The notes below the pieces were generated by a model that saw nothing but the letters and a program-made list of their open reading frames with translations, was not told the DNA's origin and made no database searches. The translations under genes and the position numbers were made by a program. Positions 11,337 to 39,374 of a stretch of 42,550 bases of DNA are shown one piece after another; the first letter of the stretch is position 1; each line of letters begins with the position of its first letter. The stretch lies in the NCBI GenBank assembly GCA_944332215.1, contig CALVJP010000021.1:1-42550 (forward strand), in the 5' to 3' direction. The DNA comes from an uncultured Bacilli bacterium (GTDB taxonomy: Bacteria; Bacillota_I; Bacilli_A; RF39; UBA660).

Positions 11337-12458
11337 ATGAAATTAGAAATTAAACAATCAGTCCTTTTAGAACATTTAAATTATGTTATAAAAGGGATTT
11401 CAACAAAAAATTTAAGACCTATTTTAAACTGCATTAAATTTGAATTAACTATGGATGGTTTATATTTAATGAGTACTGATAATGAAATTGCTATTAAAAC
11501 TTTTATTGATAAAAAAGATATTGAAAAAATTGAAAATTGTGGGGAAATTGTTGTCTCTGGACGCTATATATATGAGATAGTGCGCAAATTACCAGATGAA
11601 ATAATAAATATTGAAGAGGTTATTGATTCTAAAATTTATATTACCACCCTTAATTCATCTTTTAATTTAAACTGTAATAATGTCCATGAATTTCCTGATT
11701 TAGAATTAGAATATCGTAAAGATCCTATTATTCTTAATCAAAAAGTATTTAAAACTATTGTTAATCAAACTTCATTTGCCACTTCAACAGGGGAATCTCG
11801 TCCTGTTTTAACGGGGATTAACTTTAAAATAAGCAATAATATAATGGAATGTACCGCCACCGATTCTTATCGTTTAGCTATTAAAAAAATTGAATTACCA
11901 GCAGAAATTTCCGAAAACATCAATATCATTATTCCAACCAAAAACCTTTTAGAATTAGTAAAATTAATGAATGATGAGGAAGATCAGGTGGAAATGCATA
12001 TTTTCAATAATAAAGTTATCTTTAAATTTGCCACTTTAACGATGATGACACGACTAATCAGTGGGACTTATCCTGATACTTCTAAATTAATTCCTAATGA
12101 TTTTAATTTAACTATGAAAGTAAAACTAATTGATTTCTTTAGTGCTATTGACCGGGCTTCTTTATTAACAAACGACAGCGATAAAAATACGATCAAATTT
12201 GCGAGTAAAGGGGAAACTGTCATTATTTCTTCAAATATTCCTGAAATTGGTAATGTTGAAGAAAAAATTATGGTGGAAAAAAATAATGATGAAGATATAA
12301 AAATTGCTTTTAACTCAAAATTTATGATGGAATCGATTAAAGTGTTAGAATCTGATGAAATCGAATTATTATTTAATGGTGAATTTAAGCCGATCATTAT
12401 TAAAAACCCTGAAAGTGATGATTTATTACAATTAATATTACCAATAAGAACTTATTAA
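11337..12458 (+). CDS. dnaN: DNA polymerase III sliding clamp (beta subunit)
   Basis: A 373-aa clamp that encircles DNA as a dimer and tethers polymerase III. The three clamp domains run at about 1-120, 125-245 and 250-373. Landmarks include SGRYIYEIVRKLPD, STGESRPVLTGINF, CTATDSYRLA and the C-terminal peptide-groove end ILPIRTY (family: LPIRT/LPVR). RBS AAAGGAG precedes the ATG. It follows dnaA by about 140 nt containing DnaA boxes, the standard order. Length is normal. Confidence 0.96.
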   Translation: MKLEIKQSVLLEHLNYVIKGISTKNLRPILNCIKFELTMDGLYLMSTDNEIAIKTFIDKKDIEKIENCGEIVVSGRYIYEIVRKLPDEIINIEEVIDSKIYITTLNSSFNLNCNNVHEFPDLELEYRKDPIILNQKVFKTIVNQTSFATSTGESRPVLTGINFKISNNIMECTATDSYRLAIKKIELPAEISENINIIIPTKNLLELVKLMNDEEDQVEMHIFNNKVIFKFATLTMMTRLISGTYPDTSKLIPNDFNLTMKVKLIDFFSAIDRASLLTNDSDKNTIKFASKGETVIISSNIPEIGNVEEKIMVEKNNDEDIKIAFNSKFMMESIKVLESDEIELLFNGEFKPIIIKNPESDDLLQLILPIRTY

Positions 12459-12477: not shown

Positions 12478-12490
12478 AAAAATTCATTTT
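12478..12490 (+). promoter_or_regulatory. possible ComK half-box upstream of the comK homologue
   Basis: AAAA, five bases, TTTT (12478-12490) fits the ComK AT-box described in Bacillus, 46 nt before the GTG. Only one clear half-box is seen, not the usual pair, and in sequence this A+T-rich a single match is weak. TTGACA at 12489-12494 overlaps it and could be a -35, but no good -10 is spaced correctly. Confidence 0.2.
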
Positions 12491-12535
12491 GACAAAATTT
12501 GATAAATTTCGACAGCTTAAAGGAGTATAAGAAAG

Positions 12536-13024
12536 GTGTCGATTTTTTATATCGATAGAGAGGGGGAATTGGTTACGAAAACCGATTTATACGAAATTAC
12601 CAGTAGTACCTGTGCTTTAGTGGCGCTTGCTGAACGTCAAACTAAAGTCATCGAAAAACAGAGGAGCTTTATTATTAATAGGTCAGTATATGAAATATTA
12701 AGTTATAGTTGTGAATATTATGGAAGCTCCTTGGAAGGACGAATGAAAGGAGCTAAAAAACAACTTGGAATGGGGTATAAATTACCAATTACAATTGAAG
12801 GAAGCCAAGAAATAATAATTTTTCCTACCACGTCACCTACTAGAGATGATTGTTCCTGGATTGCCATTAAAAATATTGATACTTACCGGGCAATTGATAA
12901 TTGTGTTGAAGTGCATTTTTTCGGAGGAGCTAAAGAAATTTTTGAGTTATCGATAGACTCTTTAGAAAATCAAATGTTCCGAGCTACCAAACTAATGATG
13001 ATTATTCGAAATCGAAAATCATAA
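12536..13024 (+). CDS. comK: ComK-family competence transcription factor
   Basis: A 162-aa protein carrying the ComK core: SCEYYGSSLEGRMKGAKKQL (about 60-79), then YKLPITI, IIIFPTTSP and DDCSWIAIKNI (about 103-113), and later VEVHFFGG and NQMFRATKLM. In Bacillus, ComK activates DNA-uptake genes by binding paired AT-boxes. It is somewhat shorter than Bacillus ComK (about 190 aa), mainly at the C-terminus. The GTG start has AAGGAG 10 nt upstream. It lies alone between dnaN and recF, where Bacillus has the S4-domain gene yaaA, and is followed by its own terminator. The motif match is strong; the regulatory targets are unknown. Confidence 0.88.
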   Translation: MSIFYIDREGELVTKTDLYEITSSTCALVALAERQTKVIEKQRSFIINRSVYEILSYSCEYYGSSLEGRMKGAKKQLGMGYKLPITIEGSQEIIIFPTTSPTRDDCSWIAIKNIDTYRAIDNCVEVHFFGGAKEIFELSIDSLENQMFRATKLMMIIRNRKS

Positions 13025-13058
13025 AAATAAGCGTTAATTCGCTTATTTTTGCTTTTTT
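13024..13058 (+). terminator. intrinsic terminator after comK
   Basis: AAAATAAGCG, loop TTAATT, CGCTTATTTT, then further T-runs. It begins at the comK stop codon and isolates it from the recF promoter. Confidence 0.85.
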
Positions 13059-13070
13059 AGGCGATTTTTG

Positions 13071-13079
13071 TGGTATAAT
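13071..13079 (+). promoter_or_regulatory. extended -10 promoter for recF-gyrB-gyrA
   Basis: TGG followed by TATAAT (13074-13079) is an extended -10 element just after the comK terminator. A clear -35 is not seen. The leader to recF is about 70 nt. Confidence 0.6.
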
Positions 13080-13154: not shown

Positions 13155-14267
13155 ATGATTCTAAAAAATATCGAAATTAGAAATTTTAGAAACTACGAGC
13201 AACTGAGTTTACAATTGCATCCTCAGCTCAATATTATTTATGGAAATAATGGGGAAGGGAAAACTAATCTTTTAGAAAGTATTTATGTTTTAGCTTTCAC
13301 TAAATCTCACCGTTCCTTTATTGATCATAATTTAATTAAAAGTGGAGCCGAAACGGCGGTATTAAAAGGAACTATACTAAACAATATAACTTATAATCTT
13401 GAGATAATCTTAAATAAGACGAAAAAAACCTTGAAAATTGATAATAATATCGAAACAAAAACTGGGTCCTACATTGAAAAAATGAATATTATTATTTTTT
13501 ATTCTGAAGATTTGGAATTAATTAAAGGTTTTCCTGGAGCAAGACGCAAATACTTGAATCTTGAATTAAGTCAAATCTCACAAAATTATTATAATACCTT
13601 AAATGATTATAATAAATTGCTAAAAATTCGCAATGATTATTTAAAACAATTAAACCAGGGACAACATATTGATGAAGGCTATTTTGATATTCTCACCGAT
13701 TATCTTGTGGAAAAAAGTGTTTTTCTTTATCAAATGCGGGAACGTTTTTTAACGCGATTAAATAAAATATGTCCTAAAATATTTAAAGATATTGCCAAAA
13801 AAGATGGTTTTAAATTGCGATATGTTCCATCTGTCGAATTTACCAATATGGAAAAAGATACTATTAGAACAGAATTAAAACAGATTTTGAACACTAATTT
13901 AGACAAGGATATTAAATTTAAAACGACTTTATATGGTCCGCATCGTGATGATTTTGAGTTTTATCTTGGTCATAAAAATTTAAAATATTATGGATCTCAA
14001 GGTCAACAACGGGTAGCTGTCCTTGCCTTAAAACTATCAGAAATCGAATTATTTAAAGATTATAAGCAAACAAGTCCAATAATTTTGCTTGATGATGTTT
14101 TTAGTGAACTGGATAATGATAAAAAAAATAACCTTTTATCTTATATTGATAATGATATGCAAGTGATAATTACGACTACAGATTTAGAAAATATTGATAA
14201 AAAGATTATTGACAAAGCAAAACTGATCAACATCCAAAATGGCAAAATAATTAAAGAGGTGAAATAA
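13155..14267 (+). CDS. recF: DNA replication and repair protein RecF
   Basis: A 370-aa SMC-like ATPase that loads RecA at gapped DNA with RecO and RecR. Walker [10 protein letters not shown] is at about 30-38, the ABC signature [16 protein letters not shown] at about 275-290, and Walker [13 protein letters not shown] at about 308-319. A coiled or helical arm lies between. The stop TAA shares one base with the gyrB ATG, so translation is coupled. In Bacillus remB lies between recF and gyrB; here it is absent. Confidence 0.96.
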
Positions 14268-23696: not shown

Positions 23697-24488
23697 ATGC
23701 AAAAAGTAGTTGGTATTGCTTTTAAAGATCATGGACGCATGTACTACTTTGATCCTAGCGGATATAAACTAAAAAAAAATGTCACCGTCATTGTTGAAAC
23801 AGATCAGGGCTTACAATTTGGGAAAGTTATTAATGAAAAAATTGAGATTGATCCTAAAATGCTTCATAGCCCCTTGAAGAAAATTATTAGAATTTCTAGT
23901 AAAGACGATTATCGCCGCCATTTAAAAAATCTGCGTGATTCCAAAGAAGCTTTACTTTGTTGCCGTAAGTTAGCTAAAAAACATTCATTAGGAATGCAAA
24001 TTATTGATGCCAGTTATACTTTTGATCGCGATAAACTTATTTTTAGATTTTTAGCTGATAACCGCGTTGATTTTCGCCAATTAGCTAAAGAGTTAGCCGC
24101 TATTTATAAGGTGCGTATTGAATTAAGACAAATAGGGGTTCGTGATAAAGCTAAAGAAGTAGGAGGATGCGGACCTTGTGGTCAAAAATTATGCTGTGCC
24201 AGATTTTTGAAAGATCTTGATACTGTTTCTATCAATATGGCTAAAAACCAAAATATATCCCTTAATCCCAGTAAAATAAATGGTGTTTGTGGAAGATTGC
24301 TTTGCTGTTTAAAGTACGAAGATGAAGATTATAAAAAATGCCGCCAATGCTTACCGAAAATGGGCGATAAAGTTTCCACGCCCCAAGGGGAGGGGACTGT
24401 AGTTGGGCTTGATATTTTAAAACAGCAGTATAAAGTGAACATTCCTAATTATGGAATTATTATGGTGGATAAAGTTGGAAGTAACTAA
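23697..24488 (+). CDS. ricT: RicT (YaaT)-like PSP1-domain protein
   Basis: A 263-aa PSP1-domain protein. In Bacillus, RicT with RicA and RicF forms an Fe-S cluster complex that assists RNase Y in mRNA maturation and affects competence, biofilm and sporulation. The Cys-rich core is visible: GGCGPCGQKLCCARFL (about 155-170) and NGVCGRLLCCLKYED (about 197-211), then a CRQCLPKMGD pair. It starts one base after the holB stop and overlaps trmN6 by 14 nt. Length is normal (about 275 in Bacillus). Confidence 0.93.
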   Translation: MQKVVGIAFKDHGRMYYFDPSGYKLKKNVTVIVETDQGLQFGKVINEKIEIDPKMLHSPLKKIIRISSKDDYRRHLKNLRDSKEALLCCRKLAKKHSLGMQIIDASYTFDRDKLIFRFLADNRVDFRQLAKELAAIYKVRIELRQIGVRDKAKEVGGCGPCGQKLCCARFLKDLDTVSINMAKNQNISLNPSKINGVCGRLLCCLKYEDEDYKKCRQCLPKMGDKVSTPQGEGTVVGLDILKQQYKVNIPNYGIIMVDKVGSN

Positions 24489-31696: not shown

Positions 31697-32230
31697 ATGA
31701 AAGCAACTGGAGTCGTAAGACGTATTGATGATCTAGGCCGAATTGTTATCCCAAAAGAAATTAGAAAAAATCTTCGGATTAAAAATGGTGAAAATTTCGA
31801 AATATTCCTTGATGAAGAAGAACATATTATTTTAAAAAAATATAGTCAAATTGATAAATTAAAAGATGTCGCCACCTCTTTAGCTGATGCTATTTATAGT
31901 TTAATAAAAAAAGATATTTTTATTACTAATACGGATACTTTTATTGCAATTGGTGGCCATTTAAAAAAAGAATATTTAAATAAACCTTTATCGGGGCAAA
32001 TTGAAAAAGCCATCCATAGTCGTCAAGAAGTAATTGAATCAGAAATTAATTCTCTGGATATTTCCGCAGAGAAAACAATCAAAGCAAGTTATGCCTTATG
32101 TCCAATAATTGCTGGTGGTGATGCTGTAGGCTCCCTTATTCTTATTTCTACTAAAGAAGCGCTTCAAGATCCTGATTTTCAAATTATAAAACTAGCAGCT
32201 AACTTTTTAGCTAGGCATATTGAACAATAA
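31697..32230 (+). CDS. spoVT: SpoVT-type transcriptional regulator (AbrB N-domain plus GAF-like C-domain)
   Basis: A 177-aa protein, almost exactly the length of Bacillus SpoVT (178). The N-terminal swapped-hairpin DNA-binding domain is MKATGVVRRIDDLGRIVIPKEIRKNL through ILKK (about 1-50), and the rest is the GAF-like regulatory domain (IAGGDAVGSLILIS near 138-151). In Bacillus SpoVT modulates sigma-G genes in the forespore and lies just after mfd; here only the pyrophosphatase gene intervenes. RBS AGAAGGT. Its stop codon overlaps the promoter of the T-box transcript. Confidence 0.92.
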   Translation: MKATGVVRRIDDLGRIVIPKEIRKNLRIKNGENFEIFLDEEEHIILKKYSQIDKLKDVATSLADAIYSLIKKDIFITNTDTFIAIGGHLKKEYLNKPLSGQIEKAIHSRQEVIESEINSLDISAEKTIKASYALCPIIAGGDAVGSLILISTKEALQDPDFQIIKLAANFLARHIEQ

Positions 32231-37535: not shown

Positions 37536-39374
37536 ATGGTTATAGGAACATCTGTCATATGTTGTTGTTTAGTTTATAGTATTATGTTATTAATCCTATA
37601 TTTTTCTAAACGCCGAATTAATAATACGGAAAATAAAATATATAGTGTTTTAGTGGTTATCAATGTTTTTGGTTTGGTTTTGGAACTACTATGTTGTTAT
37701 TTTACATATTATAATGGAATAGATACGCTCCATACCATGTTATGTATTATATGTAATCGCTTATTTATCTTATATTTATTAACTTGGTTATCGGTTTTTA
37801 CTTTTTATATTTTTTATATTACTTTTACCAAAAACGATAAAATCCAAAAAAACATGGCAACGAATAAAAAAAGATTTTTTATCATCGCCGGCATTTTGTA
37901 TGCAATTATGCTAGTATTTGCTTTAATGCTTCCATTATATTACTTTAATGATGGTAATTATGTATATAGTTATGGCTCAGCCACTTCTTTACTTATGGTT
38001 TTTGGAGGTATAACCATTGTTTTTGATATTTTTTGTGTTTTTAAAAATCGCAAAAACATACGTAATCGGCAATATTATCCTTTGTTCGTGTTAATCATTT
38101 TGATGATTATTGTCTTAATTATTCGTAATGTCAATCCGGGAATTATTTTAATAAATTCTACCTTTGCTTTTATCACGGCGTTAATGTTCCATACCATTGA
38201 AAACCCAGATGTTCAATTAATTGGTGAATTATATAAAAATAAAAAATTGATTGAAAAATCTAATGAAGATACTTCAAAATTTTTGTTTAAAATGACGCAA
38301 GATATTAAAAATCCAGTTAAAGAATTAATTAGTATTAGCCGTGATATGACCAACGAAACCAATATTGATGTATTAAAGCAGGCCTCAAAACATATCAATA
38401 ATTATAGTACACAAATAGACTATTTAATTAATAAAGCCTTAAATATTTCCAGTATGGATACGCAGAAAATCAAGATATATGAAAATAAATATAATGTTAT
38501 TAATTTGTTTAAAGAAATTTCCTTTAGAACACAAGAAAAAATCAATCCAGAAGTACAATTTTCCTTTTCAATTAATCAAAATATTCCAGAGTACCTATAT
38601 GGGGATGCAATTAAATTAAAACAGGCTGTTTATTCATTAATTGATAATGCCATGAATAATACGAAAACGGGGTTTATTAATTTAGACGTTAGCTCCATTG
38701 TAAGATATAACGTCTGCCGTTTAATTATTAGTATTGAAGATTCTGGGCAAGGACTCGATATTGACGAAGTCAATAAAATTCTTAGTTTAAACAGTGAAGA
38801 TTTAGAGGAAATTAAGTTAACTAGCCTTGAGGATCGCAATAATCTTGATTTTAAATCGGTTAAAAAAATTATTAATATTTTAGGCGGAAGTATGATGCTG
38901 AAAAGTGAGCTGCAACATGGAACAACGGTTACCCTCGTATTAGATCAAAAAATTGTGGCCAATGATGATACCACAATTACTCAAAAACTGGAAAGTTATG
39001 AACAAACTTTATATGGTGATAAAAAAGTTTTAATTGTTGATGACGATGCCGAAGAATTGGCTAATATAACTTCTTTACTGGAAAAAGAAAATGTCATTGT
39101 CAGCTCATCGGTTTATGGCCGCGATTGTATTGAGAAAGTGCGCGTTAAAATGAAATATAATCTAATTATTCTTGATGATGATATGCCTAATTATAGTGCC
39201 TTAGCTATTTTGCAAGAACTTCAAAAAATTAAGAATTTTAAAACGCCTGTAGTTGTGATGATCAATGATAATAAAGAAAGCATCAAACTGCACTATTTAA
39301 AAGATGGCTTTGCTGATTGTATTATGAAATCTAAGCTAGAATCAGAACTTGCTAGAGTCATCAAAAGATTTTAA
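37536..39374 (+). CDS. membrane hybrid sensor: seven-TM domain, degenerate histidine kinase, receiver
   Basis: A 612-aa membrane protein. About seven hydrophobic segments fill residues 5-220. A kinase-like region follows: the H-box reads FKMTQDIKNPV with Gln255 where the phosphorylated His should be. The N-box IDNAMNN (370-375), G1 DSGQG (402-406) and the final HGTT (461-464) are kept, so ATP may still bind. A C-terminal receiver domain has the acidic DDD 502-504, phosphoacceptor Asp547 in IILDDDMP and Lys598. It is probably a pseudokinase or signal integrator, with the receiver phosphorylated by another kinase. No separate response regulator is adjacent. Single gene with strong terminator. 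Confidence 0.85.
   Translation: MVIGTSVICCCLVYSIMLLILYFSKRRINNTENKIYSVLVVINVFGLVLELLCCYFTYYNGIDTLHTMLCIICNRLFILYLLTWLSVFTFYIFYITFTKNDKIQKNMATNKKRFFIIAGILYAIMLVFALMLPLYYFNDGNYVYSYGSATSLLMVFGGITIVFDIFCVFKNRKNIRNRQYYPLFVLIILMIIVLIIRNVNPGIILINSTFAFITALMFHTIENPDVQLIGELYKNKKLIEKSNEDTSKFLFKMTQDIKNPVKELISISRDMTNETNIDVLKQASKHINNYSTQIDYLINKALNISSMDTQKIKIYENKYNVINLFKEISFRTQEKINPEVQFSFSINQNIPEYLYGDAIKLKQAVYSLIDNAMNNTKTGFINLDVSSIVRYNVCRLIISIEDSGQGLDIDEVNKILSLNSEDLEEIKLTSLEDRNNLDFKSVKKIINILGGSMMLKSELQHGTTVTLVLDQKIVANDDTTITQKLESYEQTLYGDKKVLIVDDDAEELANITSLLEKENVIVSSSVYGRDCIEKVRVKMKYNLIILDDDMPNYSALAILQELQKIKNFKTPVVVMINDNKESIKLHYLKDGFADCIMKSKLESELARVIKRF

Follow-up and report, generated by a model that had tools for sequence, protein, structure and literature searches.

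Why does a gene for a competence regulator stand between dnaN and recF, next to the replication origin, in a bacterium with a very small genome, and what switches it on? The question is raised by a 42,550-nt stretch of DNA (hereafter, the window), which is contig C21 of a 1.08-Mb draft genome, 86% complete, of an uncultured bacterium of the RF39 group of Bacilli. Gut Bacilli of this kind, none of them named from culture here, are common and genetically opaque; in public records, the relatives appear as metagenome-assembled genomes (MAGs) of uncultured Bacilli, Tenericutes or Erysipelotrichaceae, mainly from gut samples and ∼1 Mb in size. The window was compared with 117 genomes of its family, all of which are MAGs, and the features discussed below are listed in Table 1.

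A preliminary description of this DNA had recognized a ComK-family protein from three core motifs (SCEYYGSS, FPTTSP and CSWIAIKNI). All three motifs are present, and a Pfam search confirmed the assignment: the protein gave a full-length match to PF06338 (ComK) with an E-value of 4.3e-36. The score was 124 bits, where the cut-off is 22.3, and the match spanned 144 residues and profile positions 3–151 of 152. The residues of the core (SC-x-Y/F-GSS, FPT-x-SP and C-x-W) form invariant columns in an alignment of 16 relatives, and this is the single ComK gene of its genome. An NCBIfam search of the protein yielded no match, and no solved ComK structure was found by a sequence-based search.

The open reading frame as listed begins with GTG. 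We rejected this codon as the translation start and preferred the TTG at position 12569, because the GTG coincides with the transcription start predicted from the –10 element (approximately positions 12537–12539). The TTG is preceded at a distance of five bases by GAGG, for which relatives show the same AGGGGGAA context, and the proteins of relatives start with MxxYEI, in agreement with this reading; translation of a 151-aa product therefore probably begins there. The gene had also been credited with a terminator of its own, which we recovered as a stem followed by a T tail, and terminator-like sites were present in 33 of 88 comK–recF gaps, compared with 2.8 in shuffled sequences. Downstream lies a candidate separate promoter for recF. 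The gene thus encodes a genuine ComK-family transcription factor and forms its own transcription unit between dnaN and recF. In one relative (G100:C21:13098-13527), comK appears to be disrupted by a stop codon or a frameshift.

Table 1. Features of the window referred to in the text (positions within the window)
Feature	Position	Strand	Basis or remark
dnaN, sliding clamp, left neighbour	11337–12458	+	Pfam DNA_pol3_beta 1/2/3
0A-type box 1 (distal), TTTGACA	12488–12494	+	Family-wide array
0A-type box 2 (middle), TTTGATA	12498–12504	+	Family-wide array
0A-type box 3 (proximal), TTCGACA	12508–12514	+	Reverse complement of TGTCGAA; consensus from PMC5295017
–10 element of comK, TATAAG	12526–12531	+	11 bp past box 3
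comK ORF as listed	12536–13024	+	162 aa, GTG start
Ribosome-binding site GAGG for preferred start	12560–12563	+	Same context in relatives
comK, preferred reading	12569–13024	+	TTG start, 151 aa; PF06338, alignment of relatives
Intrinsic terminator of comK	13022–13051	+	12-pair stem, T tail
Candidate separate recF promoter, extended –10 TGG-TATAAT	13071–13079	+	Read from sequence
recF, right neighbour	13155–14267	+	SMC_N/RecF Pfam match
RicT-like PSP1 protein	23697–24488	+	PF04468, E 1.6e-29
SpoVT, sporulation regulator	31697–32230	+	PF15714, E 1.5e-25

ComK was found in 109 of the 117 family genomes. The placement in the dnaN–recF interval, as described for the window, proved to be general when this gap was compared across relatives: the order dnaN–comK–recF was observed at 95 of 108 ComK loci, one per genome, and most of the remainder were cut by contig ends. 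Among 80 named loci, 75 showed the intact order and 4 others were cut. The gene was relocated in five genomes (G026, G072, G039, G005 and G059), mostly to the vicinity of ligA and gatCA. We rejected a loss of comK in the eight genomes without a ComK match; assembly gaps are likelier, because most of these assemblies also lack a complete recF and an intact dnaN–recF interval lacking comK was found in none of them. Sister families of the class possess ComK-like genes of the same Pfam family, but these are much diverged, most of them matching with E-values between 1e-4 and 1e-19, and mostly occupy another position, in the order ABC transporter–comK-like–pgk–tpiA, or lie next to ridA; none of the 20 examined was located in the dnaN–recF gap. 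Since the other families of the class keep these genes elsewhere, the origin-adjacent dnaN–comK–recF position is a trait of the window's family. At the sister-family loci L308–L322 and L327, the divergent ComK-like gene is mostly flanked by a gene for an ABC transporter ATPase on one side and by pgk-tpiA on the other, which constitutes a conserved glycolytic neighbourhood.

Upstream of comK, the window contains three boxes resembling, in reverse complement, the box bound by Spo0A, the master switch of sporulation; the consensus of that box is TGTCGAA (PMC5295017). The boxes stand in tandem with a 10-bp period and in the same orientation, and the array ends 11 bp before the –10 element. The pattern TTYGAYANNNTTYGAYA (TTYGAYA-N3-TTYGAYA) occurred without mismatches only at the comK promoter within the window. 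In 92 dnaN–comK gaps of the family, we counted 51 copies of the exact sequence TTCGACA, compared with 0.2 in shuffled sequences, and none in the dnaA–dnaN and comK–recF gaps; the spacing between pairs of copies peaked at 10 and 20 bp. We then computed a score for three-box arrays with strict 10-bp spacing and no gaps. The window array matched at 18 of 21 positions (P = 0.005), and 54 of the 88 genomes with full-length Spo0A, including that of the window, reached P = 0.01 or better, whereas about a third had weak arrays (34/88 above P = 0.01); these statistics take the genomes as independent, and with one exception every genome represents a different genus. Where the arrays are clearest (66 genomes), their consensus runs on to TGnTATAAT, and the –10 element lies exactly 11 bp past the last box. 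Boxes of the TTCGACA type, by which members of the Spo0A regulon are recognized, are thus found near the comK promoter. We also considered the possibility that TTCGACA represents DnaA boxes and rejected it, since DnaA boxes have a different consensus (PMC5295017) and arrays of this kind also occur at spo0A and kinase genes.

The family possesses the protein that such boxes call for. A Spo0A_C domain was detected in 108 of the 117 genomes, and in the window's genome (E 2e-42) Spo0A is full-length, comprising a receiver domain (Response_reg) and Spo0A_C (G000:C51:2707-3018, minus strand). Its recognition helix, SRVERAIRHAIEV, is intact; it is the helix of B. subtilis Spo0A and is identical to that in the C-domain structures 1fc3 and 1lq1. 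Across the 117 genomes, the two-box pattern TTYGACA-N3-TTYGACA occurred at 148 sites, compared with 3 for the reversed pattern. We read 30 of the two-box loci and found that 3 precede comK, 3 precede spo0A and 10 precede a membrane protein of ∼415 aa, which looks similar in all ten cases and in the one tested contains HisKA and HATPase_c domains; among the genes behind the other loci were those for a sigma factor, AgrB and another histidine kinase. In seven genomes (G003, G015, G048, G064, G078, G097 and G105), arrays preceded the Spo0A_C domain by approximately half a kilobase, which corresponds to the start of the gene, and 14 of 27 non-comK arrays had a –10-like hexamer exactly 11 bp away. 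At the level of sequence, this is the pattern expected of an autoregulated Spo0A regulon. Sporulating Bacillota likewise have spo0A and kinase promoters autoregulated by Spo0A, to which the TTCGACA arrays before spo0A in several relatives correspond; the difference is that comK here belongs to the regulon consistently and lies at the origin.

The ∼415-aa membrane histidine kinase located behind 0A-type arrays (L281, L285, L286, L289, L290, L293, L294, L302, L303 and L305) is typical of the family and a candidate for a Spo0A kinase under Spo0A feedback. The AgrB homologue located behind such an array in G069 (L280:819-1415, minus strand) hints at a peptide signal within the Spo0A regulon.

We consider it probable, with a likelihood of roughly three in four, that the comK promoter is a direct target of Spo0A through the three tandem 0A boxes and that ComK drives the uptake genes. 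According to this model, a rise in Spo0A~P would lead to binding at the three boxes and switch comK on, and the same signal would drive spo0A itself, the sensor kinases and the sporulation genes; ComK would most likely activate the genes for the type IV pilus/ComG apparatus and the ComEA–ComEC DNA-uptake proteins. The proximal box, being close to the –10 element, could act in a second, repressing role. A comK promoter with a conserved triple Spo0A site suggests that DNA uptake and sporulation are placed under one command. The sporulation marker SpoIVA was detected in 98 of the 117 genomes, including that of the window, which accords with the published prediction that RF39 bacteria are possibly spore-forming (PMC10868615), and the presence of SpoVT in the window fits a retained sporulation programme.

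The model also assigns a different level of control to ComK. B. subtilis ComK carries a C-terminal FMLYPK degron (PMC8138137). MecA was detected in none of the 117 genomes, with a positive B. subtilis control, and none of the ComK proteins had a C-terminal FMLYPK tail: only two matches to the motif were found, both in the core, and most of the proteins stop 18–24 residues after the NQ motif. Because both MecA and its degron are missing, control of ComK would have shifted from proteolysis to transcription by Spo0A, and in the absence of MecA the amount of ComK would be set mainly by transcription.

A search for DNA-uptake genes, which had been proposed as a check on the role of ComK, was successful in part. 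The window's genome contains comEA and comEC side by side (L144), ComEC is present in 102 of the 117 genomes, and a ComGA-type ATPase is widespread in relatives, with adjoining pilin-like genes in the congener G067; however, the assembly that contains the window, 86% complete, yielded no comGA. The paired AAAA-N5-TTTT boxes (K-boxes) anticipated at the promoters did not materialize. Upstream of comK, 63 pairs had the N5 spacing, compared with 92–102 at N6–N8, and no N5 excess was observed upstream of comGA or comEA, the latter set comprising just 7 loci. We accordingly rejected the K-box model, since N5 did not exceed the other spacings either in the dnaN–comK gaps or in the comGA and comEA upstream regions. 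The regions upstream of comG and comE yielded no ComK site of another kind either, and the step from ComK to uptake therefore rests on knowledge of the protein family. The divergent comGA/pilin promoter (L145:7241-7342 and relatives) contains a strongly conserved palindrome, TTATyCTAAA-N2-TATTATATAATA-N2-TTTAGrATAA, with a symmetric –10 element. When considered as a ComK site, this palindrome proved to be present in most of the relatives searched, at a small number of sites per genome, where matches on the two strands often overlapped.

RicT is a further protein to which the preliminary description had drawn attention, and a RicT-like PSP1 protein is indeed encoded in the window; its B. subtilis counterpart, RicT, promotes the Spo0A phosphorelay. 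However, its proximity to comK means little, because the gene stands beside holB, as it does in Bacillus.

The conserved location of comK invites an explanation by gene dosage, along the lines of the preliminary description: a gene at the origin would signal the state of replication through its copy number, comK would be kept there for that reason, and the promoter would be secondary. The retention of the position in nearly all intact loci agrees with this view, and pneumococcal competence is reported to respond to origin-proximal gene dosage under replication stress (Slager 2014, cited in PMC12795458). However, gene order around dnaA–gyrA is conserved in general, so that position alone constitutes weak evidence, and comK is read from a regulated promoter and ends in a terminator of its own. 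Moreover, in the group of G026 and G072, the two clearest relocations, comK has moved to the ligA–gatCA region and retains its upstream array (P = 0.005 and P = 0.01, respectively). Since the boxes accompany comK away from the origin, what is conserved in its regulation is the promoter and not position alone, and we regard dosage as an unlikely principal explanation. The same movement of the array along with comK bears on the idea that the boxes serve the origin or dnaN and recF, where Spo0A or another factor would restrain replication and comK would be a bystander. Although Spo0A~P binds 0A boxes at oriC of B. subtilis (PMC5295017) and the array sits inside a cluster of replication genes, its fixed distance of 11 bp from the comK –10 element, its restriction to the dnaN–comK gap among the three gaps compared and the identical architecture at the spo0A and kinase promoters render this idea highly improbable.

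A different alternative concerns the task of ComK, which might have been repurposed to control pili, behaviour at surfaces or the uptake of DNA as a nutrient, and not genetic transformation. DprA (PF02481) was found in none of the 11 genomes searched (G000, G067, G094, G048, G097, G038, G113, G115, G057, G082 and G096), whereas 11 of 14 control genomes were positive; classical chromosomal transformation is consequently not assured, and the DNA taken up may be used as a nutrient or in a form of transformation that does not need DprA. The failure to find Bacillus-type K-boxes points in the same direction, and scavenged nucleotides would presumably benefit small genomes. Against this stand the widely retained ComEC, the comEA–comEC pair in the window's genome, and the ComGA-type ATPase and pilin-like genes of relatives; moreover, loss of DprA reduces transformation but need not abolish it. 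We judge repurposing to be a possibility somewhat short of even odds. The family provides a setting for asking why ∼1-Mb genomes retain DNA uptake without DprA.

Control of comK by Spo0A, the reading that we prefer, can also be followed in natural variants of Spo0A and its boxes, which offer a concrete setting in which to watch the co-evolution of a regulator and its sites. In genomes lacking SpoIVA, Spo0A was often shortened, diverged or not found. No array was observed in G038, G113 and G043, which have no recognizable or intact Spo0A, and the TTCGACA array was absent from G115 as well. The comK promoter of G057, whose Spo0A helix reads NSVEHAIKRA, carries a triple ATCGCC repeat, and that of G082, with the helix KNIEKCIRYS, carries a triple TCGAC[TC] repeat (P = 0.002 for each as a motif-free repeat); G096 combines a near-perfect TTCGACA triple with a shortened Spo0A. 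However, four genomes (G014, G032, G050 and G087) exhibited the opposite tendency, having arrays but no detected Spo0A. This absence may reflect gaps, because the assemblies are 71–90% complete and SpoIVA is kept. The association of Spo0A divergence with altered comK-promoter repeats is accordingly suggestive and not proof, as independent events are few. Since several genomes without SpoIVA, in which Spo0A has shrunk to its DNA-binding part or drifted, keep a triple repeat at the comK promoter whose sequence has changed along with the recognition helix, we tentatively propose that comK might keep Spo0A alive after the loss of sporulation, as a dedicated competence regulator that possibly acts without phosphorylation.

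The connection between Spo0A and ComK is in itself already known. Direct binding of Spo0A~P to PcomK is documented for B. subtilis (Mirouze et al. 2012, PMC3297582), where it serves to activate and later to repress comK. Spo0A boxes are located at the comK promoter there too, one of them overlapping the –35 region; however, B. subtilis has five imperfect and dispersed boxes, in contrast to the three boxes described here, which follow one another with a strict 10-bp period and keep a constant distance of 11 bp to the –10 element. In addition, Spo0A of B. subtilis mainly counters Rok (PMC3297582), and K-boxes and MecA add control, whereas here K-boxes are not enriched and MecA is absent. The pneumococcal comCDE genes resemble comK of the window in that a competence regulator lies near oriC, but they belong to another regulator family; a dosage effect is reported for pneumococcus in the source cited above. 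No publication joining ComK with an origin position or with RF39 was found in the literature searched. The new elements are the family-wide tandem array, the position at the origin and the lack of both MecA and DprA. If the arrangement holds family-wide, the sporulation–competence link of B. subtilis would extend to a remote lineage with reduced genomes, where it would be simpler and operate without MecA.

Two further genes of the window were recorded. A hybrid histidine kinase with a C-terminal receiver (HATPase_c and Response_reg) is encoded at positions 37536–39374 on the plus strand, and a transposase-like open reading frame of 405 aa, of the IS256 type by appearance, is located near the left end of the contig (782–1999, plus strand).
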